DNA from: an uncultured Prochlorococcus sp.
GTDB lineage: Bacteria; Cyanobacteriota; Cyanobacteriia; PCC-6307; Cyanobiaceae
Assembly (NCBI GenBank): GCA_902590775.1
Contig: CACIYC010000011.1
Location: 1 to 37,469 of the forward strand
Length of the DNA stretch: 37,469 nt
Direction of reading: 5' to 3'
Shown: positions 6,916 through 37,469 of the stretch, in pieces
Layout: each line of letters opens with the position of its first letter
Position numbering within the stretch: position 1 is the stretch's first letter
Made by a program: the position numbers and the translations under genes
Notes under the pieces: model-generated
Databases searched by the model: none
What the model saw: the letters and a program-made list of their open reading frames with translations, nothing else
Told to the model about the DNA's origin: nothing

Positions 6916-7890
6916 TTATTTACCAGGTAAGTAATGGCTATATCTCATTAACATTCGTAGATCTTTGTGACCACTAACAGCACTGATTTCTATTGCATTC
7001 ATGCCTTCTGTCCACATTCTGCTAATAGCTATATGCCTTAAGTCATGGAAGTGAAGATCTCTTAAACCGGCTATCTTCTTGGCTCTATTAAAAGCATGAC
7101 GACTAGCTGGTAGTGATACTTTGACTACTTGCTCCTCACAGTTCTGATATCCCTTTAAGAGCTTGATTGTTGTTTGTGATAGTGGAATTAATCTCTGTGA
7201 ATTAGAGAGTCCTTGAGCTGTACATCCTTTTCTATTCACTCTTGCAATACCTTGATCAAGGTCTATATCAGCCCATTTGAGTGAGAGGAGTTCAGACCTT
7301 CTCATTCCAGTCGCTAGAGCTAGTTGAGTTAGTTTCTTGTGTTCTGGGTTTCTGCTTTGACTGAGAGCTTGGATTAACTGGTTCTCCTCCTCTTTGGTCA
7401 GATAAGGCATCCTTGCGTCACAGCTATCTCTGACTTTCAGAGCCCTTGCTGGATTGCATTTCAGTTCACAGCCCAGTTCATCTTTAGCCCAGTCCAAAAG
7501 AACTCTGAGGATTCTTAGTTCTCTCATCACTGTGTTGGCTTTGACTTTGATCAGTCGTTCGTCTCTCCAGGCTGCAAAATGTCTGATGCTGAGCTCTTTG
7601 AGTGGGACTCCACCAATCCAACTGTTAGCTGTGGCTTGTAAGGGGTATTTCTCGTTGTGGCCACTTCTGTGGTTTTTTAGAGGCCCTTCTATATAGGAAT
7701 TAATGGCTTCTCTGAGAATCTGAGGAGGTTCTTCAGCCAGTCCTTTTGGTTTTTCAAATGAGCATTCAATAGCTTTTGCCCATAGCTCTGCTTGGACTTT
7801 TGTTGGGAAAGTCTTTGATTTTGGACCGATATGATTCTTCTTTCTAATTAAGGCTTGCCAGCCTTTTCCTCCTTTCCGAATCGTTGCCAT
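6916..7890 (-). CDS. Tyrosine recombinase of element A
   Basis: A 324-residue phage-type integrase. The N-terminal part (MATIRKGGKGWQALIRKK then KSKTFPTKVQAELWAKAIE) has the look of an AP2-like arm-binding domain. A SAM-like core-binding region with IRHFAAWRDERL follows. The catalytic domain has GMRRSELLSLKW with the first catalytic arginine at about residue 197, HDLRHIAISRMW for the HxxR motif, SGHKDLRMLMRYSHY for the final histidine and nucleophilic tyrosine. All key residues are present, so it should be active. It reads away from tRNA-Thr, with its start 143 bases from the tRNA 3' end. It is closely related to the recombinase at 17930-18913, but clearly not identical. Confidence 0.93.
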   Translation of the reverse strand: MATIRKGGKGWQALIRKKNHIGPKSKTFPTKVQAELWAKAIECSFEKPKGLAEEPPQILREAINSYIEGPLKNHRSGHNEKYPLQATANSWIGGVPLKELSIRHFAAWRDERLIKVKANTVMRELRILRVLLDWAKDELGCELKCNPARALKVRDSCDARMPYLTKEEENQLIQALSQSRNPEHKKLTQLALATGMRRSELLSLKWADIDLDQGIARVNRKGCTAQGLSNSQRLIPLSQTTIKLLKGYQNCEEQVVKVSLPASRHAFNRAKKIAGLRDLHFHDLRHIAISRMWTEGMNAIEISAVSGHKDLRMLMRYSHYLPGK

Positions 7891-7943
7891 TGGTAGGACG
7901 CAAGAAGTGCAGATGCGTCATCCAAATGAAAAGCTTTTAGAGC

Positions 7944-7975
7944 AAAAGTGGACATAAAAATGGATATCCACTTTT
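7944..7975. promoter_or_regulatory. Box cluster upstream of recombinase A (direct repeat plus palindrome)
   Basis: AAAAGTGGAC (7944-7953) is followed 12 bp later by a degenerate copy (7956-7965), which forms a near-perfect palindrome with ATCCACTTTT (7966-7975). The same layout at the same distance from the tRNA repeat occurs at 18965-18996. Its place, 54 bp upstream of the recombinase start, fits an arm-binding site, an operator of the recombinase gene, or both. Confidence 0.55.
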
Positions 7976-8030
7976 AGATATAAACAACCTCTGGTGCCTG
8001 AGAAGGTTTCTCTTAGAAGAGGTCTGGGCT

Positions 8031-8120
<90 letters not shown>

Positions 8121-8156
8121 TTTTGAGATCACCTAAATAGCCTTGCAATACAGTTA

Positions 8157-8177
8157 ATTGCTTAATGCTTAAGCAAT
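8157..8177. repeat. Perfect 9-bp inverted repeat near the left end of element B
   Basis: ATTGCTTAA (8157-8165) and TTAAGCAAT (8169-8177) are perfect inverted repeats around a TGC loop, 36 bp inside the left attachment copy. There is no T-run after the right arm. It may be a protein-binding palindrome, or act on the transcript of the minus-strand tRNA-Thr leader. Confidence 0.5.
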
Positions 8178-8234
8178 GTAGACCAAATATTTAATGAGGC
8201 CAAATCTTTTTTAGGGAGTGCTGGGATCTGTTCT

Positions 8235-8267
8235 TAGTCCGCTTCTATGTCGTGTTAGTCCACTCAA
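8235..8267. promoter_or_regulatory. Two TTAGTCCRCT boxes 21 bp apart (left arm of element B, putative)
   Basis: TTAGTCCGCT (8235-8244) and TTAGTCCACT (8256-8265) are direct repeats offset by 21 bp, just ahead of the first plus-strand gene of the element. The offset and the GTCCACT core repeat the arrangement at 2835-2865. The site could be an arm-type recombinase or excisionase site, and could also control the gene at 8290. Confidence 0.45.
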
Positions 8268-8289
8268 TTTGTTTGACTAGCATGAGTGA

Positions 8290-8964
8290 ATGAAGAAGCT
8301 CACCAAGGACCAGAAGTACTACCGCAAGCAGAAGAAAGATGGCTTAAAAGACTTTCGTCAAACCACAAGAGAAGATGGATCTAAAGGAGTCAGAGTCACT
8401 CGCAAGACGATCAATGTCAGCATTAGTACTCGAGCATTTGAGAGGCTGATTGAATTGTCAAAGATATGTGAGCTAACCCGTTGGCAGATGCTGACTCGAA
8501 TCATCCTGACTCAATTGCCCCGTTATGCAAGCTTGTCTGGGAGTTCTTCTCCAACAGAACGATATTCATGGGATGAGAGCTTATTAAACCCTTCTGATCA
8601 AAAAATCAGATACAAAGGAACTGAAGGTGAAAGACAAGTCACATATCAAATCACTAGTACGGCTTATAACAAGCTTGAGTGCCACAAAAATGCAGTTGCT
8701 CTTTCCAAAGCTCGCATTATTCAATCCTTGATACTCAACTATGAACCGATGACTAAAGAGCAGCTTGAAAAGCAGAAAACATATATCAATGAATCAAGGA
8801 AGGCACATCAAAAGAAAATTGCTGGTCAATCTTTAGCGACTACTGGGAAGGCTCCCAAGTTCATAGAAAGAGGAGGGACGATTATTCATGTAAAGGGCAT
8901 TCCTCCTGAAGGTTGGGACGATGAAGAGTTTGATGAATTCCTTACGATGCAACAAAGCAGTTGA
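8290..8964 (+). CDS. Protein with two ribbon-helix-helix-like domains
   Basis: A 224-residue basic protein. The N-terminus (KKLTKDQKYYRKQKKDG) is strongly basic. Residues about 40-77 read RKTINVSISTRAFERLIEL followed by TRWQMLTRIIL, and residues about 113-152 read RQVTYQITSTAYNKLECH followed by SKARIIQSLILNY. Both have the strand, helix A, turn, helix B order of ribbon-helix-helix domains, so one chain may mimic a dimer. The rest is a charged tail ending in an acidic stretch (DDEEFDEFL). It is the first gene inside element B, 22 bases after a paired box motif, suggesting a role as excisionase, directionality factor or regulator. I do not recognise a named family. Confidence 0.65.
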   Translation: MKKLTKDQKYYRKQKKDGLKDFRQTTREDGSKGVRVTRKTINVSISTRAFERLIELSKICELTRWQMLTRIILTQLPRYASLSGSSSPTERYSWDESLLNPSDQKIRYKGTEGERQVTYQITSTAYNKLECHKNAVALSKARIIQSLILNYEPMTKEQLEKQKTYINESRKAHQKKIAGQSLATTGKAPKFIERGGTIIHVKGIPPEGWDDEEFDEFLTMQQSS

Positions 8965-9178
8965 AAAAGACAAAGAATATCGCCTATGATAAATTGGCTG
9001 TAAAGATAATAATAGAAATAATTTTGTTCTAATCCCTATTTAATACAGGAGGAGGCTTGAATACCGATAAGACAAAGATCATTCACTGCTATCGAAGGAG
9101 GCGGAGCTTCGATTCTTATTGAATATTCTTTTTCTCTTTCTCTAATCCCTAACTACTTAGACCAGCACGTACAGCACG

Positions 9179-9325
9179 ATGGAAGAACAACAACAGCCCA
9201 GTATTGACCCTTTAAGTTTTAGAGCCAGTCTCAAAGATCAATCGATAAGAGAGATAAGAGCTGCCTCGATGGGTTTGACCTTACAGGCATATGAATCGCT
9301 CTTGAGGCATATCGGACGACTATAA
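9179..9325 (+). CDS. Small protein of unknown function, 48 residues
   Basis: A short frame from ATG 9179 to TAA 9325. It is hydrophilic and probably helical: MEEQQQPSIDPLSF then RASLKDQSIREIRAASMGLT and LQAYESLLRHIGRL. The segment IREIRAASMGLTLQAYESL has a helix-turn-helix-like spacing. A good intrinsic terminator follows at 9391-9415, which supports transcription through here. No family is recognised, and existence as a gene is moderately likely. Confidence 0.4.
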   Translation: MEEQQQPSIDPLSFRASLKDQSIREIRAASMGLTLQAYESLLRHIGRL

Positions 9326-9390
9326 CCAATAGTTATTGGTCCAATCGCCTGAGGACTTTAAAAGCTGAGCGTTAATCAATCCGCAGATAT

Positions 9391-9415
9391 GAGGCTAAAG
9401 ATGGCCTCTTTTTTT
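9391..9415 (+). terminator. Rho-independent terminator
   Basis: GAGGC (9391-9395) pairs with GCCTC (9404-9408) over an 8-base loop, followed directly by seven T (9409-9415). It would end transcripts from the 8290 and 9179 genes. Confidence 0.7.
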
Positions 9416-9445
9416 ATGCGCAATTATCACCATCACATATTAACT

Positions 9446-9619
9446 ATGAGATCTATTAATCAATTAATTAACTCTGGGAAGACATTGACCAAGAGAGAAA
9501 GAGAAGCAGTTGAACGTCATATCCAAGCTCATTCGGAAAGGATTTCGATACGAGAGTCAAACGATATAAAATGTAGGGCTGCTATCCAAAAAAGGTCAAA
9601 ATATGTGGCTTATGGATAA
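9446..9619 (+). CDS. Small basic protein of unknown function, 57 residues
   Basis: From ATG 9446 the product is a basic, helical protein: MRSINQLINSGKTLTKRERE, then AVERHIQAHSERISIRES, ending in KRSKYVAYG. The frame is open further upstream to ATG 9389, but that start lies within the terminator hairpin, so 9446 is preferred. No family is recognised. It follows the terminator and would need its own promoter. Confidence 0.35.
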   Translation: MRSINQLINSGKTLTKREREAVERHIQAHSERISIRESNDIKCRAAIQKRSKYVAYG

Positions 9620-9693
9620 AGGGATCTGAAGGTGCAACTTCTAAAAATCGAGGCTAGAAGGGGGATGTTTTTTGGTCAATGACCGATACTAAT

Positions 9694-9846
9694 CTACTTT
9701 GATGCCACAGCTATCAGAAGCGCTAATCCACCAAAGAAAACGAGGTTCCAAAGAAGAGCTTTTGGATATTTAATACTTTGTTTAATCAGCCAATAAGGAA
9801 AATATAAAAGAAGAAGAACTGAGAAAATCAGATAAATTATTTCCAT
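9694..9846 (-). CDS. Small membrane protein, 50 residues
   Basis: A minus-strand frame with ATG at 9846 and TAG at 9694-9696. The product has two clear hydrophobic segments, IIYLIFSVLLLLYFPYWLI (about 3-21) and LLWNLVFFGGLALLIAVA (about 31-48), joined by the short basic loop KQSIKYPK. It therefore looks like a genuine two-helix membrane peptide. It is divergent from the Mrr-ParA gene, with 82 bases between the two starts. It could be a small toxin or effector of the hydrophobic type, or just an uncharacterised membrane protein. Confidence 0.45.
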   Translation of the reverse strand: MEIIYLIFSVLLLLYFPYWLIKQSIKYPKALLWNLVFFGGLALLIAVASK

Positions 9847-9928
9847 GATTTGTTCCTATCTTTTTGATATTGCACAAAAGAGGTTAATTTAAGCAAATAT
9901 ATAATCATTAAAAAAGATCATAAAAAAT

Positions 9929-11131
9929 ATGGCTGATTTACCTTTCGAAGATCCATATGAATTTGAAAAACATGTAGCAAGACAATGCGAAGACCTTGGC
10001 TATGAGGTCATCATGCCTCCTACTAATCAACCTGGATATGATATCGAGATTATTAAAGGAAAGGAGCGGATTGCTGTTCAAGTCAAATGCTATAAAGCTC
10101 GTTGTCCAATTTCAGCTCTCAATAAATTCCTGGATTTCCTTGAATTACCAGCAGCTTCAGGGTTTACCAGTGGATGGCTAATCGCACAAAATGGGTTTGG
10201 GAAACCATCTTTAACCCATGTACAGACTGAGCGACCCAGCAACTTAAAGCTTGGTACTTCAACAGGCAGGGCAATTAAATGGAATTATGATCCAGAGAAT
10301 AAAGAGTCTGAGGATTTAGAACCTGAAGAGCCAACCTCTGAAGAGCAAGGAATAGATAGCAGCATTAAATATTTTGGAGTCTTTACTTGTAAAGGTGGTG
10401 TTGGTAAAACAACTGTCGCTGCTCACTTAGCAGGTGCCTTTGCACTGATGGGATACGACGTCATTCTGTTAGACCTCGACCCAGACAAAAACCTAAGAAA
10501 ACTCTTCTTAGAAAATCCAAATTCAGATGATGAGGATGAGCCAGCTTCTCTTTATGTCCCACCACATAAAAGAGACACGATGGGGACAACTATCACCGTG
10601 CTCAATGCAGACCAATGGAACGAAAGAGCCTATCCAGAGGTAAAGGTAGTCATATGTGACTGCTCTCCTGTTTTGAGCGAGAATCCAATGCACTTGGTCA
10701 AAAAATTTGATTACTGTGTCTTGCCTACAACTCTGAATCCCTTAGGCATAGCAAAAGGCGGAGATGTAATTACACGGACATTTAGCCATATAAGGAAGCG
10801 TAATAAAAAAGCGGAGATGTTTGCTGTTGTCAACGGCTATAACGCTGCTCAGTCCTATGAGAGACAAAATAATACTCTTCTCTCAATGCTTGAAAGAACA
10901 GTCAGTGCATACAGCAAATCAGACCCCAAGTGTCAATTAATCAATCCTTCCTACGCAAAAATCAGACAGAGCAAATTACTTCAATACTGGGGTATGCATA
11001 TCATTGATGGTTCTCCACCTGCGCTGGCGTTTAGAGAAATAGCAGGAAGGAATGCTCCTAGAACTGATTTTTTGCAATTAGCAGAATTTCTACAAGACCA
11101 TACAGCTATCACTTCAATCAATGAAAGCTAG
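9929..11131 (+). CDS. Mrr-like nuclease domain fused to a ParA/MinD-type ATPase
   Basis: A 400-residue fusion. Residues about 6-115 resemble an Mrr-type restriction endonuclease domain: FEKHVARQCEDLGYEV, then GYDIEI and RIAVQVKCYK, the D and QxK of the PD-(D/E)xK core. An acidic linker (about 122-146) follows. Residues 149-390 are a ParA-like ATPase with the deviant Walker A CKGGVGKTTVAAHL (signature lysine at about 155), LLDLDPDKN and a Walker B-like VVICDCSP. ParA proteins partition DNA or position cargo on the nucleoid. Joining this to a nuclease domain is unusual and could serve element maintenance or defence. No parB-like partner is recognised. A terminator lies about 200 bases downstream. 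Confidence 0.78.
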   Translation: MADLPFEDPYEFEKHVARQCEDLGYEVIMPPTNQPGYDIEIIKGKERIAVQVKCYKARCPISALNKFLDFLELPAASGFTSGWLIAQNGFGKPSLTHVQTERPSNLKLGTSTGRAIKWNYDPENKESEDLEPEEPTSEEQGIDSSIKYFGVFTCKGGVGKTTVAAHLAGAFALMGYDVILLDLDPDKNLRKLFLENPNSDDEDEPASLYVPPHKRDTMGTTITVLNADQWNERAYPEVKVVICDCSPVLSENPMHLVKKFDYCVLPTTLNPLGIAKGGDVITRTFSHIRKRNKKAEMFAVVNGYNAAQSYERQNNTLLSMLERTVSAYSKSDPKCQLINPSYAKIRQSKLLQYWGMHIIDGSPPALAFREIAGRNAPRTDFLQLAEFLQDHTAITSINES

Positions 11132-11201
11132 TTAAGGACAGCCATACCAGAAGCTATATACAGACTGCCTTGCTTCTTTGGGAGGTTCTTGGAGAACATT
11201 T

Positions 11202-11225
11202 TTGTAGTCCTGTTTAGAACTACAA
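11202..11225. other. Hairpin downstream of the Mrr-ParA gene
   Basis: TTGTAGT (11202-11208) pairs with ACTACAA (11219-11225), a 7-bp stem with a 10-base loop. It is followed by AACAACAATTTG, with no T-run, so it is not a classical terminator. It may protect the 3' end of the transcript. Confidence 0.4.
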
Positions 11226-11332
11226 AACAACAATTTGTATACCGAAAAATTACTGACTGCAACTAAATGGTGCATACTCATTGAGAAGGAAGTCTTTTTA
11301 AGTCAATTAAAAATCTAAGCACTCTTAAGTGA

Positions 11333-11355
11333 GCTCTGTTTGCAGGGCTTTTTTT
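11333..11355 (+). terminator. Rho-independent terminator between Mrr-ParA and M28 genes
   Basis: GCTCTG (11333-11338) pairs with CAGGGC (11343-11348), with one G-T pair and a TTTG loop, followed by seven T (11349-11355). It separates the Mrr-ParA transcript from the three-gene unit that begins at 11413. Confidence 0.75.
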
Positions 11356-11412
11356 ATTGCCCAAGTCAAAAGAACGACCAAAGCTTTTAGCTCAAACCAC
11401 TAAAAAATAATC

Positions 11413-12237
11413 ATGAATAAACAACAGCTTGTTGATGATCTAAAGCAGCTTGCAATTTTGCGCCATTCCAAGTGGGATGCACTTGGTCTGATGAGTACTC
11501 GTGTTTATCTCAAGGAGCAAATGTCTTTAATTGGAACAGTAGAGGAATATCACTTTCAAGAAGGTTCAGAAAAAGGCATTAATTACATCCTTAAGCTTCC
11601 TGGTACAAATCCTAAGCTTGACCCAATGCTTATAGGTGCCCACTATGACGGACCTATTCAATCTCCTGGTGCTGATGATAATGCTAGTGGAGTAGCAGCT
11701 TTGCTAGAGCTATGCAGGACTTTCAAGAAAAATCCACCTAAAAGATCCGTGTGGATGGTTGCTTTTGATCAGGAGGAATGGGGGATGCTTGGCAGTAAAG
11801 CCTTATCAAAAGAACTCAAGGCTAAAGGTCAGAAGCTGAAGCTGATGGTCAGTCTTGAAATGTTGGCTTACACAAGTGAAAAGCAGGACTATCCATTACC
11901 TGCAATGAAAAAAATCTATGGAGAAAAAGGCGACTTTATTGCTTTAGTGGCTAATACTGGATGCGCAGTGATGCTTCCTGGCTTGGCATCAAATATGGGT
12001 AAACATGTCCCATCGAAAGTCCTTCCTGTCCCTCTTGGTGGGGATGTTTTGCCGGATGTGCGCCTTAGTGATCACAGCCCTTTTTGGGATCAGGGCTATA
12101 ACGCAATGATGGTGACTGATACTTCATTCCTAAGGAACCCTCACTATCACGAGCCGACTGATACGGTCGATACTCTTGATTTGGACTTTTTCTGTAAAGT
12201 TGTTGAAGGGGTATCAAATAGTCTTTCTATATTGTAG
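11413..12237 (+). CDS. M28-family zinc aminopeptidase-like protein
   Basis: A 274-residue protein with the metal-binding pattern of M28 peptidases: GAHYDGP (zinc histidine), PGADDNASGVAALLEL (bridging aspartate), AFDQEEWGMLGS (catalytic glutamate pair), LEMLAY and the late SDHSPFWDQGY plus HYHEPTDTVDTLD (zinc histidine). All key residues appear conserved, so it is probably active. No signal peptide or membrane segment is seen, so it would act in the cytoplasm, unlike many secreted M28 enzymes. It opens a unit whose next gene starts 8 bases downstream. The partners are not peptidase-like, so a role in processing a peptide or modifying a partner protein is possible but inferred. Confidence 0.85.
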   Translation: MNKQQLVDDLKQLAILRHSKWDALGLMSTRVYLKEQMSLIGTVEEYHFQEGSEKGINYILKLPGTNPKLDPMLIGAHYDGPIQSPGADDNASGVAALLELCRTFKKNPPKRSVWMVAFDQEEWGMLGSKALSKELKAKGQKLKLMVSLEMLAYTSEKQDYPLPAMKKIYGEKGDFIALVANTGCAVMLPGLASNMGKHVPSKVLPVPLGGDVLPDVRLSDHSPFWDQGYNAMMVTDTSFLRNPHYHEPTDTVDTLDLDFFCKVVEGVSNSLSIL

Positions 12238-12245
12238 AAAAAACA

Positions 12246-15200
12246 TTGAAACTTTCAAAACTAATTAAAAGACTTAATAAGTATGATCTGATTTCATGTG
12301 TTCTTTATGCTGCACTATTCCTAGTAATTGTAAATTTTTCTTTTCTATTCAATATAACTAGCTTTAGTAGTTTTTTTTTCATAATTTTATTTATATGGGC
12401 AGCTGGAATGGTTAATAAATTTATGCGAAAAAAGAAATTCCGGTCCTTGTGGGATGAAGGTAATGAGAATCTTTCCTCAGGTAAATATGAAGATGGAATA
12501 AAAAGCTACACTAAAGCAATTAGAATATATGCTAAAGAGCCAATTGTTTTTAATAATAGAAGTTACGCAAATTTACTATTAGGTAATATAGAAGCTGCAT
12601 ATCAAGATATCAACAAAGCACTAGAATTAGACCCTAAGTGTATTTTGGCTATATGCACATTGGGGAATATTCAACAAAATGAAGGGAAGTATAAAGAGGC
12701 AATTATTAATTATGAGAAAGCAATATCTATAGAACCTGCTGATACTAATGCATATTTTTACTTATATAAACTTTATTCAAAATTAGAGGATAAAGATCGA
12801 GCATACAACTATTTAAAACAAGCTGCAAAGCTTGGAGATAAGGCCGCAATAAAAATACTAGATAAATTAAAAAGTGATTGGGTTTACCATCAAGATAAAG
12901 ATATAAATATCATGTCTGATTTCTATGATAATTATGCTCAAAAAACTTTTGATGACTTGCTAGGTGGACATGAGGAGTATTTAAAAGTGATACGTTGGCA
13001 AAGTGAGAATGTAGATCTTGTAGAATCTCAAGATTTTAAAAAAAGTCTCAGATCTAGTAACTTTAATAAGATGTTATATTCACTAGGAAAGCTTGCATTT
13101 AAATATGATCAACTAAATGGTAATGATAGAAGAAAACTAGGAGATATAGAAGTTCAAAATATGATTGAATATAAAAGAAATATACGCACTATTGGTGAAG
13201 AAGATTCAATAGAATTTTCTTATACAATGGGAAATTACTTTCAAGATATTCCTGTCCCTGAACTACTTAGTTTTTACCCTAGTGAAGGAACAATTAGATT
13301 TTTATTCAATACTTTAAGTGATCAATTGATTGACGAAACAATAAAACCCTTAAACGATGCTGAGACAAGAGAAGTCTATGGATTGCTTGGATATTATGGA
13401 CAAATACCAATTAGATTGAGACTTTTAAATGATCATGAGAAAAAAGAGTCACAAAAAAAATGGGCATGTGGTGTTCCACTAGATTCTGAAATAATTTTAG
13501 TAGATGTACCAGATACTCATGGATATTTTGCAAGTGAGATTGAGAGCTCAACACACATAAAAGAGAAATTCCCTAAGTCACTATGGATAAATACTTCAAC
13601 AACTTCAATTACTAATTTAGTTAATGAAAAGCCATCCCCTTGTTCATTAGATGCATTTTATACCTGCTTATATCAAAATACTAATTATATAAGATATGTT
13701 GACCCTTCTAGAAAGGATCTAAGTAAAGAATTTAGATGGGCAACGATAGTTATTCTACTTGTAATTGCAGAGGAAATTGAAATTTATAGCATTAAAGAAG
13801 ATAATGAGATTGATCAAGATTGGTTTGGGAGAATAAAGGATATTTACATTAAGGTTTCTTTTGTTAAAAGCCTCAAGAAATGGGTTCATGCAAAACTAGA
13901 ATCTTGTGATCAACAGTGGCTTGAAAGAACTTGGTGTATAGGAAAGAATAATTTTGTTGATTTTTGTAGATATGAAAATGTTGATTCCTTTTTAGAAGAT
14001 GTTGAATGGCAAGCAATTGAAAGTGTTATAAATTGTTCCTGGAATGATTCTATTTCCAAAGAAAAGACGGAAAAACTTAGAAAATCAAAGTTAGCTTGGG
14101 ATAAAGAAAACTTACCTACAGATATTGGGAATAAAAGCAATTTAGATATTTCATCTAATGAGCAAGATGAAGATATTTTAGAAAGTTTAAAAAAACTTAG
14201 AGAAAATTATGAAGGATCAGGAGGTGATAAACTTTTTCTTCATTCCTTGATCAAAAGAGCAACGCAATTAATAGATTTAAATGAGCATCTAGGGGAAGCA
14301 TATTTTTACAGAGGTTATGCTCATCGATATTATTTACCATGGGGTGATGGATGTAAAGATGCAATAAGTGATTTTAATCTTGCTGAAGAAAATAGTTTAA
14401 ATAATTCAGATGAAATCTTCTATTATCGTTCTCTTACATATCTTGAATTATGGCAGCCAGGAAAAGCATTAAACGATTTTCAATCACTTTTAGAAATTCT
14501 GAAGAAAGAAGATGGTAAATTAAAAAGTGAAAACATCACTCCGCGACAGATCTTAGTTATATTTGAAGATATAGGATTTAGGATTGCATCTAAACTAATG
14601 AAAAGTGGAAAGGTCCTTAACCTAAAAGGAAGTGAAGCTAATGATTACTTCTCTAAATTATTATTAGATGTCGATAAGATTGTATTAGCTAATAACCGTT
14701 TTCTAGATATTGATAAACTTCAGAATTACCAATGTCTAGTTAAAGCAATTATAGGAACAAGGCTTTCAACTAATTTAGGATTATCTAATAATGAAGAGGG
14801 TATTTGGAATGAAGAAAAATTGTATTTAATAATTGATCAAATAAGCACTAGAATAGATAATTCACAATTTAAGGATTGGCGCTTATATGCCTTGAGGGGA
14901 AGACTTAGAGAAGTATTAAAAGATAATGATTATTTAAGTGATGTTGAGATTGCTTTCCAAGAAAATCCAAAAGATATTGAACCAGGAGTATGGATAGATG
15001 ATGAATGGTTGTTTGATTTAATTCCAGTTCTCATGAGAGCGAAAGATGGTCCTCAAAGGGAACTAATGAGTGAAAATTTAACTAACTTTCTAGAAAAAGA
15101 AGGAGAACATTTAGAAAATTGGGAATATTGGAGCGAGGATTATGAGATTCCTTATGGCACTCCTCAAGTTCAAACAAGTAGTGAACCCTATATAGATACA

Positions 15201-15410
15201 ATAAAAACTTTTAAATTTGAGTATGAGATTCCAGATGATTGGTGGGATCTAGTCACTTCTTTACGAAATGAGGAAGGTCTAATTAAAGAGAAATGGCAAG
15301 AGAAATATGCAATATTTACTAAGCAGGATTGGGAACCTTTAGAGAAAGAAATAGAGAAGGAATTTTTGAAGATATGGTCGAGTAAACCTCCAAAAGTATA
15401 CATTAACTAA
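12246..15410 (+). CDS. Large membrane-anchored TPR protein
   Basis: A 1054-residue protein. Residues about 14-58 are two hydrophobic segments (ISCVLYAALFLVIVNFSF and FSSFFFIILFIWAAGMV), followed by the basic stop MRKKKF, suggesting an N-terminal membrane anchor with a cytoplasmic body. Residues about 70-215 contain three to four TPR units (GNENLSSGKYEDGIKSYTKA, ANLLLGNIEAAYQDINKALEL, GNIQQNEGKYKEAIINYEKA). A second repeat-like stretch lies around 660-760 (AYFYRGYAHRYYLPWGDG). The middle and C-terminal regions are not recognised. Translation starts at TTG 12246, 8 bases after the peptidase gene, and the stop is 3 bases before the next start, so the three genes form an operon. It probably serves as a scaffold or sensor. 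Confidence 0.7.
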   Translation: MKLSKLIKRLNKYDLISCVLYAALFLVIVNFSFLFNITSFSSFFFIILFIWAAGMVNKFMRKKKFRSLWDEGNENLSSGKYEDGIKSYTKAIRIYAKEPIVFNNRSYANLLLGNIEAAYQDINKALELDPKCILAICTLGNIQQNEGKYKEAIINYEKAISIEPADTNAYFYLYKLYSKLEDKDRAYNYLKQAAKLGDKAAIKILDKLKSDWVYHQDKDINIMSDFYDNYAQKTFDDLLGGHEEYLKVIRWQSENVDLVESQDFKKSLRSSNFNKMLYSLGKLAFKYDQLNGNDRRKLGDIEVQNMIEYKRNIRTIGEEDSIEFSYTMGNYFQDIPVPELLSFYPSEGTIRFLFNTLSDQLIDETIKPLNDAETREVYGLLGYYGQIPIRLRLLNDHEKKESQKKWACGVPLDSEIILVDVPDTHGYFASEIESSTHIKEKFPKSLWINTSTTSITNLVNEKPSPCSLDAFYTCLYQNTNYIRYVDPSRKDLSKEFRWATIVILLVIAEEIEIYSIKEDNEIDQDWFGRIKDIYIKVSFVKSLKKWVHAKLESCDQQWLERTWCIGKNNFVDFCRYENVDSFLEDVEWQAIESVINCSWNDSISKEKTEKLRKSKLAWDKENLPTDIGNKSNLDISSNEQDEDILESLKKLRENYEGSGGDKLFLHSLIKRATQLIDLNEHLGEAYFYRGYAHRYYLPWGDGCKDAISDFNLAEENSLNNSDEIFYYRSLTYLELWQPGKALNDFQSLLEILKKEDGKLKSENITPRQILVIFEDIGFRIASKLMKSGKVLNLKGSEANDYFSKLLLDVDKIVLANNRFLDIDKLQNYQCLVKAIIGTRLSTNLGLSNNEEGIWNEEKLYLIIDQISTRIDNSQFKDWRLYALRGRLREVLKDNDYLSDVEIAFQENPKDIEPGVWIDDEWLFDLIPVLMRAKDGPQRELMSENLTNFLEKEGEHLENWEYWSEDYEIPYGTPQVQTSSEPYIDTIKTFKFEYEIPDDWWDLVTSLRNEEGLIKEKWQEKYAIFTKQDWEPLEKEIEKEFLKIWSSKPPKVYIN

Positions 15411-15413
15411 AAA

Positions 15414-17864
15414 ATGACTATTTCAAAAAAAGAAATAACATCTTTAATTGAGAAATCTTATTCAAAAGTATTGCGTAGAATTTTTACAGCTTATTCTTTT
15501 CAATCACATGTCTCACTTGATCTTAAACCAGATGATTTAAACAAATTTGAGATTCTCCTATCAACTTGTGTTCGTCTACATATAAGAGAAGCTTTAGAGC
15601 AAGAAAAAATTCTAAATATATTAGAAGAAAAGAGGCTTGAGAAATTTTTAGAATTAGTGAACTGGAGACTATTGGCAAAAAAATATTGCAAGTCTATCGA
15701 TAAAAAAAAGAATGAAGACCCAATAGATCTTGACGAACTTTATAAATTATATGAAAAGCACTATAGAATTGAATTTAATGATTATGACTTTGCAAAAGTT
15801 AGAAGTGATTTATTTTATAAATACCCTCCTCAGAAAATTTTCATCAAGGAAATATTAACAAGTACTGATGAAGAAGACATATATAATAGTAAGAATAAAA
15901 AAGCAAAATTAGCACCTGATTGGTATGAAGCCTCATGCAAAGAGCTAGGACTTATTGGCGTATTTGAGACAAAGAAAGAAGCAAAAGATTGTTTTGAGTT
16001 ATATAAGAAAAATAAACCAGATTTAAATAATTTAGAGATTAAACCAGTGAGATGTATGCCTCCAGGGAGATACTTTATTGGAGACCTTGGACTTATTTTA
16101 GATGATTATGAGAATCAATCAAAATATCCAAATGGTAGAGATGTGTATCAATTGGAAGATGGGACCTTATTTGCAAACTTTAAGACATGGGGTGGCGATG
16201 GAATCTTTGAGGATCAGGTTGGTTGGCAATATGGAGTCGACACTGGAGGAATAGGCGCTATCCCAATCAGATCTCTCCCGAAAGAATTGAGAAATATCAA
16301 GTCAGGGCAAGGTCAAAGAGTAAGAATATTTAAGCACCCTGTTATTTGTTCTTATGGCTTCCCAATTGAAGGATGTATAAAAATAGGAAATGATTATATT
16401 TTTACTTCTGTAAAAGATGTTAGTGAAGAAATGAAAAAATCTCTTTTTTTAGAGGGATATCAAAGAGATGTAATATTAGATAGAAGAAAGTCTGAAGACG
16501 GAAATCCTAATCCAAATTCTTTTTATGGCTATAAGGTCGATGGACCTTATTTAGATACAATAAAAAATCAAATAGATCAAATAAAAGGTCAAAATATACA
16601 ATCAAATACTCAATCAAAAGGAACAGAAATTGATACTTCTATTCTTGATTGTTATAATTTAGATAACTTTAAGCTTCCTGATTTTAGAATTACTTTAAAA
16701 AAAGATATTTTAATTAAAGATCTAAATTTATCAGTTAGGGCTTTTAATATCTTAATGAGATCTGGATTTGAGTATATAAATGATTTAAGTGGTCTTACGT
16801 ATTTTGATTTCCTGGAGATGAGGAATTTAGGATCTAAAGCAACAAATGAAATCATTGTTCGTCTTCATGAAAAAGGATATATCAGTAAAGAATTAATTTT
16901 AGAAATCCCAGTATTAGAAGAACCAATCAGAGAAATTTGGACCAGTGGAGATAAGGTAATTCATAACTTATATGGACCAGGAAGATTAATAGGAAGTAAT
17001 CCTAGCTTTATTGTTGTTAGGTTTGAGCAACTTCAGCAAGCTAAGAAGGTATATCAGATAGATCCTTATACCCCTCATGAAATTAATCAGATAATTAGTA
17101 AAAAGATCTACCCTTATAACTTTTTAAAAGAGCAATCTTCAATCAAAGTGGTAAGAAAAATCTCTGAAGAAAAATATCAAGAGTATATTTCAAGAGGATC
17201 AAACTCATTTGATAATTCTTCAGAAATAGAGACTATTTATGAAATTTTTGAACAGGAATGGAAAGACCTTTTTGAAGATATACCATCAGAGATTCTCTAT
17301 GCCAATGCTCAAAAGTGTATTGGCTCTTTAATAGAACTTTTTAAGCGTTATAAGACAGGGATGGAAATTTTTGATGATCAGGGTAATTCATTAAATGAAA
17401 AATTCTTTATTAAGCTAATAGATAATACAGTTACAGTTTTACATGAATCATTTGCTACAAAGCCCAAGCTTGTTTGGATTAATAAATATGGCGAAACACC
17501 ACCAGCTAATCAATCAATAGAAGTACTTGGTTTTTCTAAAGAAATTTATAACCAACTTAAAAGGCTTTCAGTTTCTTCTCTGTCAAAATTAGCTTTGATG
17601 GGATACGACGATTTTCATAATTATATGCTTATAGGATACGGTCAAATTGTTGATAAATTTAAAGAACTTGGGTTTTTAATGAAACTAAATGAAGGTGATC
17701 AAAGGCTTGATGAATTTTGTCCTGAATATCAATGGGCCAATATCAAAAGATTGAAAGAACTAGGCTATGAAATAAAGGGTCAAGATTATCTCTCTGGCGC
17801 TCTAACTAGATTTTTTGATCAATCTAAGAAAGTATCAGAATCCAGCCAGGCAAATAAATTGTAA
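15414..17864 (+). CDS. Multidomain protein with GD-rich, HhH (alpha-CTD-like) and Tudor-like modules
   Basis: An 816-residue protein of no recognised family. Around 213-295 it has a PGRYFIGDLG, WGGDGIFEDQVGWQYGV and DTGGIGAIPI pattern that resembles a small domain seen in phage and toxin-immunity proteins. Around 435-492, DLNLSVRAFNILMRSGF and FLEMRNLGSKATNEII match the helix-hairpin-helix of the RNA polymerase alpha C-terminal domain. A second, weaker copy lies at 703-760 (LGFSKEIYNQLKRLSVSSLS, YGQIVDKFKELGF). Between them, GDKVIHNLYGPGRLIG resembles the Tudor-like tail of UvrD/PcrA and CarD-type proteins. These modules bind DNA or RNA polymerase. The gene ends the operon and follows the TPR gene with a 3-base gap. 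Confidence 0.6.
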   Translation: MTISKKEITSLIEKSYSKVLRRIFTAYSFQSHVSLDLKPDDLNKFEILLSTCVRLHIREALEQEKILNILEEKRLEKFLELVNWRLLAKKYCKSIDKKKNEDPIDLDELYKLYEKHYRIEFNDYDFAKVRSDLFYKYPPQKIFIKEILTSTDEEDIYNSKNKKAKLAPDWYEASCKELGLIGVFETKKEAKDCFELYKKNKPDLNNLEIKPVRCMPPGRYFIGDLGLILDDYENQSKYPNGRDVYQLEDGTLFANFKTWGGDGIFEDQVGWQYGVDTGGIGAIPIRSLPKELRNIKSGQGQRVRIFKHPVICSYGFPIEGCIKIGNDYIFTSVKDVSEEMKKSLFLEGYQRDVILDRRKSEDGNPNPNSFYGYKVDGPYLDTIKNQIDQIKGQNIQSNTQSKGTEIDTSILDCYNLDNFKLPDFRITLKKDILIKDLNLSVRAFNILMRSGFEYINDLSGLTYFDFLEMRNLGSKATNEIIVRLHEKGYISKELILEIPVLEEPIREIWTSGDKVIHNLYGPGRLIGSNPSFIVVRFEQLQQAKKVYQIDPYTPHEINQIISKKIYPYNFLKEQSSIKVVRKISEEKYQEYISRGSNSFDNSSEIETIYEIFEQEWKDLFEDIPSEILYANAQKCIGSLIELFKRYKTGMEIFDDQGNSLNEKFFIKLIDNTVTVLHESFATKPKLVWINKYGETPPANQSIEVLGFSKEIYNQLKRLSVSSLSKLALMGYDDFHNYMLIGYGQIVDKFKELGFLMKLNEGDQRLDEFCPEYQWANIKRLKELGYEIKGQDYLSGALTRFFDQSKKVSESSQANKL

Positions 17865-17929
17865 GCATAATAAACTCCTTGGAATATTGATAGAAAATTC
17901 CGATTTCATTCCAACGAGCCACAAAGAAT

Positions 17930-18913
17930 TCATGACCCCCTATACCCCAACTGGTAATGGCTATAGCGCATCAACATTCTTAGATCTTTGTGTCCACTAA
18001 CTGCTGATATTTGCAGAGCGTTCATTCCATCAGCCCACATCTTGCTAATGGCAATGTGGCGTAGATCGTGAAATCTAAGTTGATTTAAACCAACAGCTTT
18101 TCGGGCTCGATCAAATCCATGCCGAGCAGAACCAGCGCTTAGGCCAATGATGTGTTGATGCTCTTTTGGATATTGATCGAGCAGCTTCACGGCTTTTGGT
18201 GATAGTGGTACTAAACGCTCACTTCTTTGCAAGCCTTTAGCAGCACAATCTTTTCTAGTTAGGCGAACAAGTCTTCGGTCTAGATCTAGATCATTCCATT
18301 TGATCGAGAGAAGTTCACAACGACGCATCGCTGTTGCAAGTGCCAACTGTGTGAGGCGCAGATGATTTGGATTTTGGGATTGAGCTAACTGCTTGAGTAA
18401 ATCTTGCTCTTGTTTCTTAGTGAGATGCGGAATTCTGGCGTCATTGGTCCCTCTGACTTTGAGCTCTCGTGCTGGGTTTGATTGGAGCAGGCAACCTTGC
18501 TCATCTTTAGCCCAATCCAGCAGAACTCGTAAGATCCTGAGTTCTCTCATGATCGTGTTGGACTTGACTTTGAGCAGGCGTTCATCACGCCAGAGTGCAA
18601 AATGCCTGATCGAAAGGTCATTGAGTCGAACTCCACCGATCCAACTGTTGGCCATTGCTCGTAATGGATATTGCTCGTTATGACCACTGCGGTGCTCTTG
18701 CATCGGCCCCTCAATAAACAAATCGATGGCTTCTTTGAGGATTTGAGGCGGTGGTTGGTCTAATTGTTCTGGTCTTTTGAGAGACCCTTCAACAGCATTT
18801 GCCCATAACAAGGCTTGGCTTTTTGAGCTAAATGTCTTGGCTTTTGGTCCTTGATATTGCTTCTTTCTAATGAGTGCTTGCCAGCCTTTGCCACTCCTTC
18901 TAATAGTTGCCAT
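17930..18913 (-). CDS. Tyrosine recombinase of element B
   Basis: A 327-residue phage-type integrase, clearly homologous to that of element A along its whole length. It has the same N-terminal arm-binding look (MATIRRSGKGWQALIRKKQY), the catalytic AMRRCELLSIKW, FHDLRHIAISKMW and SGHKDLRMLMRYSHY motifs, including the nucleophilic tyrosine. All catalytic residues are intact. It ends about 65 bases after the plus-strand cargo gene and starts 141 bases from the tRNA-Thr 3' end, reading away from it. The divergence from recombinase A argues against a simple recent duplication of one element, and for two related elements targeting the same tRNA. Confidence 0.93.
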   Translation of the reverse strand: MATIRRSGKGWQALIRKKQYQGPKAKTFSSKSQALLWANAVEGSLKRPEQLDQPPPQILKEAIDLFIEGPMQEHRSGHNEQYPLRAMANSWIGGVRLNDLSIRHFALWRDERLLKVKSNTIMRELRILRVLLDWAKDEQGCLLQSNPARELKVRGTNDARIPHLTKKQEQDLLKQLAQSQNPNHLRLTQLALATAMRRCELLSIKWNDLDLDRRLVRLTRKDCAAKGLQRSERLVPLSPKAVKLLDQYPKEHQHIIGLSAGSARHGFDRARKAVGLNQLRFHDLRHIAISKMWADGMNALQISAVSGHKDLRMLMRYSHYQLGYRGS

Positions 18914-18964
18914 CTCTTGAATTGCATCGGGTCAGATGCATCAAGCAAGAATGATCAGGAGAGC

Positions 18965-18996
18965 AAAAGTGGACTAAAAAGTGGACGTCCACTTTT
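18965..18996. promoter_or_regulatory. Box cluster upstream of recombinase B (direct repeat plus perfect palindrome)
   Basis: AAAAGTGGAC at 18965-18974 recurs 12 bp later at 18977-18986, and this second copy abuts its exact inverse GTCCACTTTT at 18987-18996, giving a perfect 20-bp palindrome. It sits 52 bp upstream of the recombinase start and 55 bp from the tRNA repeat, matching 7944-7975 in place and layout. It is probably an arm-type or operator site. Confidence 0.6.
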
Positions 18997-19051
18997 AGAT
19001 ATAAACAACTCCTAGTGCCTGAGACTAATTCTCTTGGAAGAGGTTGAGGAC

Positions 19052-19135
<84 letters not shown>

Positions 19136-19141
<6 letters not shown>

Positions 19142-19217
19142 GGGTTGGATTTGAACCAACGTAGGCATAGCCAGCGGATTTACAGTCCGCCCCCATTAAC
19201 CACTCGGGCACCGACCC
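19136..19217 (-). tRNA. tRNA-Tyr (GTA)
   Basis: An 82-base class II tRNA on the minus strand: acceptor GGGTCGG pairs with CCGGCCC, the D-arm holds GAGTGG, the anticodon stem GCGGA/TCCGC encloses CTGTAAA with GTA, then a long variable arm, and the T-arm is GTTGG TTCAAAT CCAAC. The last seven bases at its 3' end belong to the 90-bp repeat that is also present at 8114-8120. Confidence 0.93.
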
Positions 19218-32879: not shown

Positions 32880-33323
32880 ATGTCTGAAGTAGCTACTGTC
32901 TCAATTAAGCGCTCTATTACTATTCGCGCTGTTGTTACTCCATCCTGGAAAGAAGAAGCAGAAAAGGAAATAAGTGCTGCCATATCTACCAGTGATCAAC
33001 AATTAGCACAATTAGAGAAAGAGGGCCAACAAGTTGTTGATGGATTGAGAACACAAAGTGCGAATCCTTTAGATCCAAGAATTCAGGAACAAGTGTCTCA
33101 AGTTCAACAACAAGTTGCTGGTAAAAGATCTGAACTCGAAGAACAAAAGAGAAATTTGCTTCAACAGCAAGCCCAGGTTAGGGAATTAGAAATGGAGCAA
33201 ATTGTAGAGCAGGGGCAGATTGAGAGCTTCTGTGACCTTAAAGTTGGGGATAATTTAGTTAGCAAAATGCAAGTTTCTATTCTTGTAAGAGATGGTGTTG
33301 TTGAGTCTATTAATCAAGACTGA
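32880..33323 (+). CDS. YlqD-family protein
   Basis: A 147-residue protein resembling the YlqD family of unknown function. It has a central coiled coil (about residues 35-105), rich in glutamine and glutamate (QVSQVQQQVAGKRSELEEQK, QQQAQVRELEMEQI), and a short strand-rich C-terminus (VGDNLVSKMQVSILVRDGVV). In picocyanobacteria this gene is normally followed by pdhC. In this window that neighbour seems to be replaced by an integrated element about 65 bases downstream. Confidence 0.75.
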   Translation: MSEVATVSIKRSITIRAVVTPSWKEEAEKEISAAISTSDQQLAQLEKEGQQVVDGLRTQSANPLDPRIQEQVSQVQQQVAGKRSELEEQKRNLLQQQAQVRELEMEQIVEQGQIESFCDLKVGDNLVSKMQVSILVRDGVVESINQD

Positions 33324-33388
33324 TTTTTGTTTTTGTTTCTTTTGGCCATAGGTCTTTAAGATTGGAGTAAGACTTTAAGGAGAAGGTA

Positions 33389-33421
33389 TTGGCAAGTCAC
33401 GACATACTCAAAACTATGTGA
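33389..33421 (+). pseudogene. pdhC: 5' end of pdhC (dihydrolipoamide acetyltransferase), interrupted
   Basis: A ribosome-binding site AAGGAG (33377-33382) precedes TTG 33389, which opens the peptide MASHDILKTM and then stops at 33419-33421. Prochlorococcus PdhC, the E2 subunit of pyruvate dehydrogenase, begins with MASHDIF or MATHDIF followed by the lipoyl domain, from memory. The reading matches up to about the sixth codon and then departs. As E2 is expected to be essential, either the other junction of the element rebuilds the gene or a second copy exists outside the window. Confidence 0.55.
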
Positions 33422-33437
33422 TACCAGTGCCTTTGTT

Positions 33438-33527
33438 GTTGGACATCGTGTTGGACACGGAAATTAGAATGAGATAGACTTTGATATAACTAGGTCGCTT
33501 GATTGCGGTTGGACAGAACCTTGGACA
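33438..33527 (+). repeat. Two pairs of TTGGACA direct repeats
   Basis: TTGGACA occurs at 33439, 33451, 33509 and 33521. The copies in each pair are 12 bp apart, and the two pairs are 70 bp apart, almost seven helical turns. They lie between the pdhC remnant and the recombinase gene, where arm-type integrase sites are expected. Confidence 0.6.
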
Positions 33528-34894: not shown

Positions 34895-35170
34895 CTACGC
34901 AACATCGTCATTGATCTGATGCTCAACCACCTGCCATCCATTGCTCAATAACTCAAACCAAGTTTCATTGGCATCTTCTAGTGCCATTGTTCGGGTGTTC
35001 TTGATCTGCGTGGGGATACCTTCAGAAGTGGAGTGCCAAAGTTGAGTAATGACTTTGGGCATCCGCATGAGGGACTTTGGATCTCTGATGAAGAAGAGAA
35101 CTAATTTTTGCTCTGGGTGCATTAACCATCCACTTGGTGTTGGTACTGCACGACCAAAATCTTCAGTCAT
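34895..35170 (-). CDS. DUF1651 family protein
   Basis: A 91-residue protein resembling the picocyanobacterial DUF1651 family: PSGWLMHPEQKLVLFFIRDPKSL, then TRTMALEDANETWFELLSNGWQ. The function is unknown; members are often multicopy in islands of Prochlorococcus and marine Synechococcus, as I recall. It converges with the recombinase gene, with 4 bases between. A terminator-like hairpin with an A-run (35192-35218) lies just upstream of its start. Confidence 0.7.
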   Translation of the reverse strand: MTEDFGRAVPTPSGWLMHPEQKLVLFFIRDPKSLMRMPKVITQLWHSTSEGIPTQIKNTRTMALEDANETWFELLSNGWQVVEHQINDDVA

Positions 35171-35368: not shown

Positions 35369-37469
35369 GTGGCGACCTTTGACGAGTTCTACAAATCATT
35401 AGATCCCAACGACAACGTTAGGGGAGAGCAGTTTGAAAAGAAATTCGCAAAATGGTTCTTAGAAACTGATCCAACATGGTCAAGTCAAATTGATGAGGTC
35501 TGGTTGTGGGATAACTATCCACAACGCTCTGAGTGGGGACCTGATTGCGGAATAGATATTGTTTTTCACCATGTCAATGGGGAAAGATGGGCAGTTCAGG
35601 CAAAATGTTTTTCACCCGATAACTATTTAAATAAAGCAGAATTAAATAGTTTTATTGCTGATGCGAGTGATGAGAGATTTCAAGGGAGATTACTTATTTC
35701 AAGTACAAATAAAATCGGACCAAATGCAGATAAACTTTTAAAAAGGCACAAAGTAATAAGGATATTATTAAAGGATTTAAGAGATGCATATTTAAACTAT
35801 CCTTCTTCAATAAAAGATTTATATAAGGTAAATCAACCCGAGAAGTACACTCCTAAACTGCATCAGAGGGAAGCAATAAATGAAGTAACAGAAAAACTAA
35901 ATTCTGTAGATAAAGGTCAAGTAATAATGGCATGTGGAACAGGGAAAACTCTTACTTCTCTTTGGATTAAAGAAAAGTTAATTGCTAAAAACACTCTTGT
36001 ATTAGTTCCATCATTAAGTCTTTTAAGGCAATTGCTAAAAAGTTGGAATTCTCAAAAAACTCAGTCTTTTAAATGGTTATGTGTTTGTTCAGATAATACA
36101 GTTGCTAAAGATAAAAAGAATGATACATGGATTACAAATACATCTGAATTGGATATTTCAGTGACAAGTGATTTGTATAAGATTAAAGACTTTTTATCTC
36201 AATCAGGTCAAAAAGTTGTTTTTTCAACGTATCAGTCATCTGACTTGATTTGTCAGGTACAAAATATAATGAGTAATTTTATTTTTGATTTAACTATTGC
36301 AGATGAAGCACATAATTGTACTGGAAGACTTGAGACTTATTTTGGAAATATACTTGATGATAAAAAAATAATTACTAATAAAAAATTATTTTTTACGGCA
36401 ACTCCAAAAATTTTATCTCAACGAATTAAAAAAAAGTCAAAGGAAAAAGAAATTGAAGTTGCTTCAATGGATGACAAGTCAAAATTTGGCGATATTTTAC
36501 ATAAATTAGATTTTTCGGATGCAATAAAAAAAGGAATTCTGACTGATTATCAAGTTTCAATAGTTGGTATTGATAATAAAGAGATTAGAGAGTCAATTCA
36601 AAATAGAGAATTAATTACAACATATGGTGATCATATTTTTGATGCAGAAAGTTTAGGTACCTATATTGCAATCATTAAATCTATAAAAAATTATAATCTT
36701 ACTAAATTAATTTCTTTTCATAATCGTCTTGAACATGCAGAAATTTTCTCTAATAATTTTCCAATAATATCAAATACTTTTCAAAAAGATGTAAAGGATA
36801 AAGTGAATATTTCTTCTGACTTTGTTAAAGGAAACATGAATGCAACCTTGAAGGAGGAGAAAATTCAAAAACTGAATTCAGTAGATAAAAATGATTGTTT
36901 TATTTTATCTAATGCAAGATGTTTATCTGAGGGAGTTGATGTCCCTACTTTAGATGGTGTTGCATTTATTGACCCTAAACATAGTCCAACTGATATCGTT
37001 CAGGCAGTAGGTAGAGCAATTAGAAAATCTGGTGATAAAAAAAAGGGTACTATCATTATTCCAGTTTTTCTAGATGATATTGATCATATTGATGAACAGA
37101 TTCTTGCTACAAAATTTACTACTGTTTGGAGTGTAATTCTTGCTTTAAAATCACAAGATAATGAGTTATTGGAGAAAATAGATTCTCTTAGAGTTGAACT
37201 AGGAAGTAAGAAAATAACTAAAATTACTAGTAAAGGATTTGAAAAAATACATTTTGATCTGCCTGATCATATAAATCCTAAATTCTATGAATCTCTCTAT
37301 ACAGTTTTAGTTGATAATACATCAGATGATTGGTTAGAAAAATTTGGTCAATTAAAAACATTTAAAAATGAATATGGAAATGCAAGTCCATCAAAGAGAG
37401 ATAGTTCTCTGGGTGAATGGTGTCAAACGCAAAGAAGAAGTTTTAAAGCAAGGAAGTTGTCTCAAGAAC
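35369..37469 (+). CDS. Restriction-nuclease/SF2 helicase fusion with helicase-associated domain (partial)
   Basis: An open frame of at least 700 codons that runs off the window. GTG 35369 is taken as start, because a TAA in frame lies just before it. Residues about 50-85 hold a PD-(D/E)xK-like nuclease core (GPDCGIDIVF, then WAVQAKCFS). SF2 helicase motifs follow: MACGTGKT (about 187-194), ADEAHNCTGR (about 310), FFTATP (about 340), and QAVGRAIRKSG near 548. The last part (DDWLEKFGQLKTFKNEYGNA then LGEWCQTQRRSFKARKLS) is a helicase-associated (HA) repeat. This is a restriction-like nuclease-helicase, often found in defence islands. Whether a methylase accompanies it cannot be seen. Confidence 0.85.
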   Translation, partial: MATFDEFYKSLDPNDNVRGEQFEKKFAKWFLETDPTWSSQIDEVWLWDNYPQRSEWGPDCGIDIVFHHVNGERWAVQAKCFSPDNYLNKAELNSFIADASDERFQGRLLISSTNKIGPNADKLLKRHKVIRILLKDLRDAYLNYPSSIKDLYKVNQPEKYTPKLHQREAINEVTEKLNSVDKGQVIMACGTGKTLTSLWIKEKLIAKNTLVLVPSLSLLRQLLKSWNSQKTQSFKWLCVCSDNTVAKDKKNDTWITNTSELDISVTSDLYKIKDFLSQSGQKVVFSTYQSSDLICQVQNIMSNFIFDLTIADEAHNCTGRLETYFGNILDDKKIITNKKLFFTATPKILSQRIKKKSKEKEIEVASMDDKSKFGDILHKLDFSDAIKKGILTDYQVSIVGIDNKEIRESIQNRELITTYGDHIFDAESLGTYIAIIKSIKNYNLTKLISFHNRLEHAEIFSNNFPIISNTFQKDVKDKVNISSDFVKGNMNATLKEEKIQKLNSVDKNDCFILSNARCLSEGVDVPTLDGVAFIDPKHSPTDIVQAVGRAIRKSGDKKKGTIIIPVFLDDIDHIDEQILATKFTTVWSVILALKSQDNELLEKIDSLRVELGSKKITKITSKGFEKIHFDLPDHINPKFYESLYTVLVDNTSDDWLEKFGQLKTFKNEYGNASPSKRDSSLGEWCQTQRRSFKARKLSQE

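Follow-up and report, generated by a model that had tools for sequence, protein, structure and literature searches.

The 37,469-nucleotide stretch of DNA analysed here (the window) very probably carries the attL end of a site-specific integrative element that has entered the 5' end of pdhC, the gene for pyruvate dehydrogenase E2, with the host gene being rebuilt behind a replaced 5' end. The window is the complete contig C11 of a 1.24 Mb assembly in 48 contigs that is 67% complete, and its end at 37469 falls within the element, inside a restriction-type gene. The features of the junction and of the visible part of the element are collected in the table.

Features of the left junction and of the visible part of the element (positions in the window)
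Feature	Position	Strand	Basis or detail
ylqD, host gene left of the insertion	32880..33323	+	PF11068, E 1.4e-36
Candidate -10 box TTTAAGAT (native pdhC promoter, which now points into the element)	33355..33362	+	sequence and conservation
Shine-Dalgarno of native pdhC, AAGGAG	33377..33382	+	sequence; conserved in sister genomes
Hairpin, left arm host and right arm element sequence	33382..33434	+	-18 kcal/mol, z -3.46
pdhC codons 1-6, TTG GCA AGT CAC GAC ATA (MASHDI), host half of attL	33389..33406	+	
Probable att core/crossover region CACGACAT	33398..33405	+	last bases common with empty sites
Element-derived codons CTC AAA ACT ATG TGA, closing the truncated pdhC frame	33407..33421	+	
Arm-type repeats TTGGACA at 33439, 33451, 33509 and 33521	33439..33527	+	four of five window copies, one strand
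Tyrosine integrase, 445 aa	33553..34890	+	phrog_1 integrase 2.7e-23; PF00589 2e-5
DUF1651 gene, element cargo	34895..35170	-	PF07864 4.2e-23
Restriction-type gene (Type IIG-like; Mrr-like nuclease and helicase), truncated where the contig stops	35369..37469	+	PF13156, PF04851

A preliminary description of this DNA, made from its letters, had placed a ribosome-binding site and the start MASHDI of E2 directly after a YlqD-like gene, and had proposed that this start is broken by element sequence. Both statements hold: the upstream gene is a YlqD family member, the Shine-Dalgarno motif and the first six codons follow it, the frame stops at 33421, and DNA homology to sister genomes reaches 33405 (query position 526) and then ends. 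In sister genomes the same leader runs on as TTGGCAAGTCACGACATTTTTATGCCAGC, the E2 start MASHDIFMPA, and empty sites of the same genus continue as ...CACGACATTTTTATGCCAGC, again encoding MASHDIFMPA; in genomes with an empty site, ylqD precedes pdhC and a TAAAAT-like box is conserved between the two. A comparison with empty sites in sister strains had also been proposed, and in these strains E2 homology is present exactly at the position of 33389. The start codon of pdhC in the window is TTG, not ATG, and the CACGACAT core is common to attL and attR in related elements.

The hairpin that spans the junction resembles a terminator, and G013, a sister genome that shares this junction, has AAGGCACTGCTATCACAT and its complement, which form a perfect palindrome, in place of the pdhC start, at the position matching the window hairpin. 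We considered such a hairpin as a feature of the family and set it aside, as it is strong only in the window and G013; G233 has a terminator-like structure that is not significant and the other five elements show nothing significant, so the hairpin is not claimed for the family.

A 400-genome sample of the family has homologues of the integrase, with about 42-88% identity, in 15 genomes besides that of the window, and three more come from the named contigs AG-349-G15, AG-355-P16 and AG-426-L07, which gives 19 with the window. The genes are broken in G013 and G335. Wherever the contig reaches the left end (18 of 18 cases) the integrase comes after ylqD, at the start of pdhC, with the same repeat spacing, which is beyond chance; G097 has an extra gene between ylqD and the pdhC start, and the contig of G323 starts inside the integrase and extends to E2. 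As a control, none of 14 distant homologues (30% identity or less) has ylqD or E2 within 1.5 kb. It is hardly credible that a chimera, made when a single-cell genome was amplified or assembled, produced the junction with no real integration behind it: the genome is fragmented and in sister G013 the gene order is inverted beside the same integrase remnant, but many independent assemblies, single-contig genomes among them, show this junction with core, arm repeats and integrase spaced in the same way. In G013 itself (L037, contig C7, 5604-8064) lipB keeps its orientation relative to neither the integrase remnant nor ylqD and fadD, all three being inverted, an arrangement that is either a true inversion or a single-cell amplification chimera.

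The PF00589 match of the integrase lies slightly under the Pfam cut-off, its invariant residues in the alignment are Arg248, Lys281, Arg387 and Tyr419, and its catalytic boxes are non-canonical, with Asn/Thr replacing the usual His/Trp and HxxR carrying His or Tyr. The predicted structure has a mean pLDDT of 73.7, with a poor C-terminal stretch of 58 residues, and fold comparison places lambda Int (1z1b) closest to it (E 2.8e-07); a sequence-profile search of solved structures with the integrase gave nothing informative. In L151 (G325:C25) the contig that holds the pdhC integrase has a second, distant integrase-like gene of about 20% identity at 8924-10120.

The arm-type repeats of the window lie 50, 62, 120 and 132 bp from the pdhC TTG, and these left-end offsets are kept within a few bases in other elements, with some sites lost. 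At the right end, repeats lie 61, 50 and 38 bp before the start codon, or 53 and 41 bp in AG349, AG355 and AG426. This arrangement of arms around a core is what would be expected of a lambda-Int-like enzyme that binds both arm and core sites. The spelling of the repeats differs by lineage, being TTGGAACA in G080, G118, G097 and G220, TTAGACA in AG349, AG355 and AG426, and TTGGACA in most other elements (spelling compared at L075, L076, L077, L078 and L097-L099), and it may track integrase subtype.

Decisive for the fate of pdhC are the relatives that can be followed to their right end. E2 is reached and intact in 12 of them (G080, G118, G097, G220, G271, G305, G017, G319, G323, AG349, AG355 and AG426), in each case behind an upstream region, start and first codons supplied by the element, which bears out the earlier proposal that the far junction provides a new 5' end for the gene. 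Because attR carries an in-frame start and first codons, we conclude that in these relatives pdhC is rebuilt with a replaced 5' end. The elements measure 4,554-21,234 bp from core to core (11 measurable elements), and in G325, G351 and G335 the right end is on a separate contig. In sequence, attL reads TTGGCRACCCACGACAT followed by the element, and attR reads element followed by ATGGCRACCCACGACATCTTCATGCC. G017 and G271 have the longest block common to both ends, 16 bp, with an unusual allele, CACAGACAT, that is the same at each end; most other elements share 7-15 bp, and the degenerate G319 and G335 share 4 and 6. At the left junction of L085 (G369) part of the core is present a second time (TTGGCGACCAACGAC TTTGGCGACCCACGACAT), which may be the trace of an earlier insertion.

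Which codons come from the element can be read from G005, a genome of the same genus with a 6.9-kb insert that contains a small serine recombinase and no integrase of the pdhC-element family. The sequence at its right end, ATGGCGACTCACGACAT, encodes MATHDIF, in contrast to the SHDIF of empty sites in the genus, and the codons left of the core are therefore element-derived. The start codon of pdhC is TTG at 30 of 30 empty sites and ATG at 15 of 16 occupied ones, counting G005; these counts are of related genomes and not of independent events. This difference implies that the element puts its own leader, start codon and few following codons in place of those of the host.

These observations are best explained by the following mechanism. 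The element site would have, besides the arm repeats, its own copy of the first pdhC codons, and a lambda-Int-like tyrosine integrase would recombine it with the 5' end of the host pdhC, with the crossover falling around CACGACAT, at codons 4-6. At attR, the upstream region, start and first codons of the element would form one reading frame with the remainder of E2, as is seen in relatives, and the native pdhC promoter would now face the integrase. The far end of the element would then bring a working promoter, for which AG349 and AG355 make the strongest case, each having a -10-like box, GTATAAT, in its attR that may serve this role.

The far junction of the window copy cannot be seen, since the contig ends at 37469 and E2 is absent from the 67%-complete assembly: an E2 family search of the assembly found no catalytic domain, and neither an E2 N-terminus nor a match to the att/E2 pattern was found there. 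Absence of E2 from this assembly and from G013, which shares the junction, might be taken to mean that the insertion broke pdhC in this cell and that E2 was lost or resides on an unlinked copy. We consider this very unlikely, as the two assemblies are merely 67% and 54% complete, E2 is intact and in frame in every related element traceable to its right end, and E2 is present in 247 of 251 near-complete genomes of the family. We infer that the window copy, too, has an intact attR past the contig end and a rebuilt pdhC.

The cargo differs among elements. Beyond the DUF1651 gene, which also adjoins the integrase remnant in G013, the window element carries its Type IIG-like restriction gene (PADLOC REase_MTase_IIG, 4.9e-134), whereas G118, and by similarity G097, have Type I restriction. 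DruA-like proteins are found in AG349, more weakly in AG355 and by similarity in G271; the loci are L097 14315-15295 and L098 11858-13162, with PF14236 at 7.7e-21 in AG349 and weak in AG355. In G220 the cargo is a DNA methylase carrying a ParB domain. Small serine recombinases (PF00239) occur in most related elements and none in the window part, where no transfer genes were seen either.

The elements are patchily present among the genomes, and near-identical hosts carry different integrases, both of which are indirect signs of mobility. YlqD of G271 and G233 is 98% identical while their integrases share 49%, and for AG355 and AG426 the corresponding values are 100% and 58%. Since hosts with near-identical YlqD carry such different integrases, the pdhC site has been entered more than once. 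Related integrases were absent from the viral contigs, phage records and plasmid records searched, and a class-wide sample of 291 genomes gave four matches at E 1e-20, all from the same family and none from outside this cyanobacterial family.

Replacement of the 5' end may have left lasting marks. Among the matches listed, 84 genomes have ylqD and E2 on one contig, genomes in which a contig break splits the pair being left out. The gap between ylqD and pdhC is 51-80 bp (short, empty) in 33 of the 84, 90-240 bp in 39, mostly clade-wide, and more than 240 bp in 12; clade-wide gaps are about 197-201 bp in one genus and about 225 bp in another, the latter being, we presume, high-light (HL) Prochlorococcus. 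We compared the 75 nt before pdhC with the attR set, using 500 shuffles in each of 28 comparisons. The resemblance was reached in 0/500 shuffles for G024, G376 and G131 and in 1-3/500 for G061, G190, G004 and G344; among leaders of the HL type it was reached in 0/500 for AG349, AG355 and G128, in 1/500 for G029 and in 4/500 for AG426. Because 28 comparisons were made, leaders with 1-4/500 are suggestive only. Six empty-site control leaders were not significant, and about 60 nt of the AG349 pdhC leader can be aligned with its own attR. A decayed attR would be the simplest reading of the HL-type leader, and on this similarity we think it somewhat probable that the pdhC leader of high-light Prochlorococcus is a decayed, domesticated right end of the element, a leader that outlasted the element that brought it. 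The changed leaders of clade g79 and of G016, G066, G107, G113, G137, G025 and G019 were also considered as scars but are not claimed as such, as they have no significant similarity to attR.

The pdhC element fits the class of elements that target the 5' end of a gene: it has a tyrosine integrase at one end, its attB lies in the 5' coding end of pdhC, and 12 relatives have an in-frame new start and N-terminus at attR. Elements at dusA, for example IMEVchUSA3, likewise pair a tyrosine integrase and a host-gene 5' end with an attR that provides a new upstream region and N-terminus in frame; they differ in targeting a tRNA-modification gene of Proteobacteria, in being mobilised by conjugative plasmids, while no such genes were seen here, and in replacing 35 codons instead of a few (PMC8409611). 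The SXT/R391 elements at prfC also have a tyrosine integrase and an attB near the gene 5' end and supply a new promoter and N-terminus, but they are large conjugative elements of Gammaproteobacteria (PMC2654960; PMC8409611), whereas the pdhC elements span 4.6-21 kb. Both systems are precedents for promoter replacement (PMC2654960; PMC8409611).

Closer in host range is a picocyanobacterial element (integrase cluster158946) for which tRNA-Phe and tRNA-Cys were given as the sites and whose integrase family was reported as missed by PHROGs (PMC10187409). The two have in common their hosts, a tyrosine integrase, a nearby small serine recombinase and variable cargo with restriction systems (PMC10187409), so that the pdhC element might belong to that element, with pdhC a mere passenger position. 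The positions of tRNA genes speak against this: a scan of pdhC elements found no tRNA in them, the 20 kb that follow pdhC hold none in six genomes, and the next downstream tRNAs, Asp and Trp, are 64-67 kb off (three genomes). Each element end lies in pdhC codons, and the pdhC integrase is found by a PHROGs profile. We therefore reject tRNA-Phe or tRNA-Cys as the true site and regard it as highly improbable that the pdhC element belongs to that element with pdhC as a passenger position. The site and the visibility to PHROGs suggest that the pdhC family is distinct, the latter being indirect evidence against membership of its integrase in cluster158946.

Tycheposons (Hackl 2023, as cited in PMC10872708), Prochlorococcus islands that combine cargo and a tyrosine recombinase, are reported to lie at tRNA genes; by that description the pdhC element differs, as its site is pdhC and a tRNA is found at neither end. 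Elsewhere in the window, there are two tRNA-Thr(ggt) genes (8032-8104 and 19053-19125), after each of which comes one of two related tyrosine integrases (6916-7890 and 17930-18913), and the two units flank about 11 kb of variable genes; this region, 6916-19217, looks like a tycheposon-like tRNA-Thr island. G002, G128 and G143 have the same tRNA-Thr/tRNA-Tyr pair upstream of their ylqD.

We found no description of pdhC as the integration site of such an element in the open-licence literature searched. The mechanism is known at other targets (SXT at prfC, and dusA), and the pdhC target and this integrase family seem undescribed in that literature. The finding would add a protein-gene target to the picocyanobacterial islands, whose sites in the literature examined are tRNA genes, and the precise att core enables a search for excision in cultures and metagenomes. 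An element that targets a gene start must carry a compatible replacement, and each insertion therefore swaps the control region of the gene. Nineteen integrases at one site, with fixed geometry and many apparent scars, constitute a natural experiment in leader replacement in globally abundant phototrophs. If our reading is correct, these elements have on repeated occasions exchanged both leader and start codon of an essential gene of central metabolism, and, if the high-light leader is indeed a domesticated right end, a mobile element would have rewired pyruvate dehydrogenase expression across a very abundant phototroph lineage.
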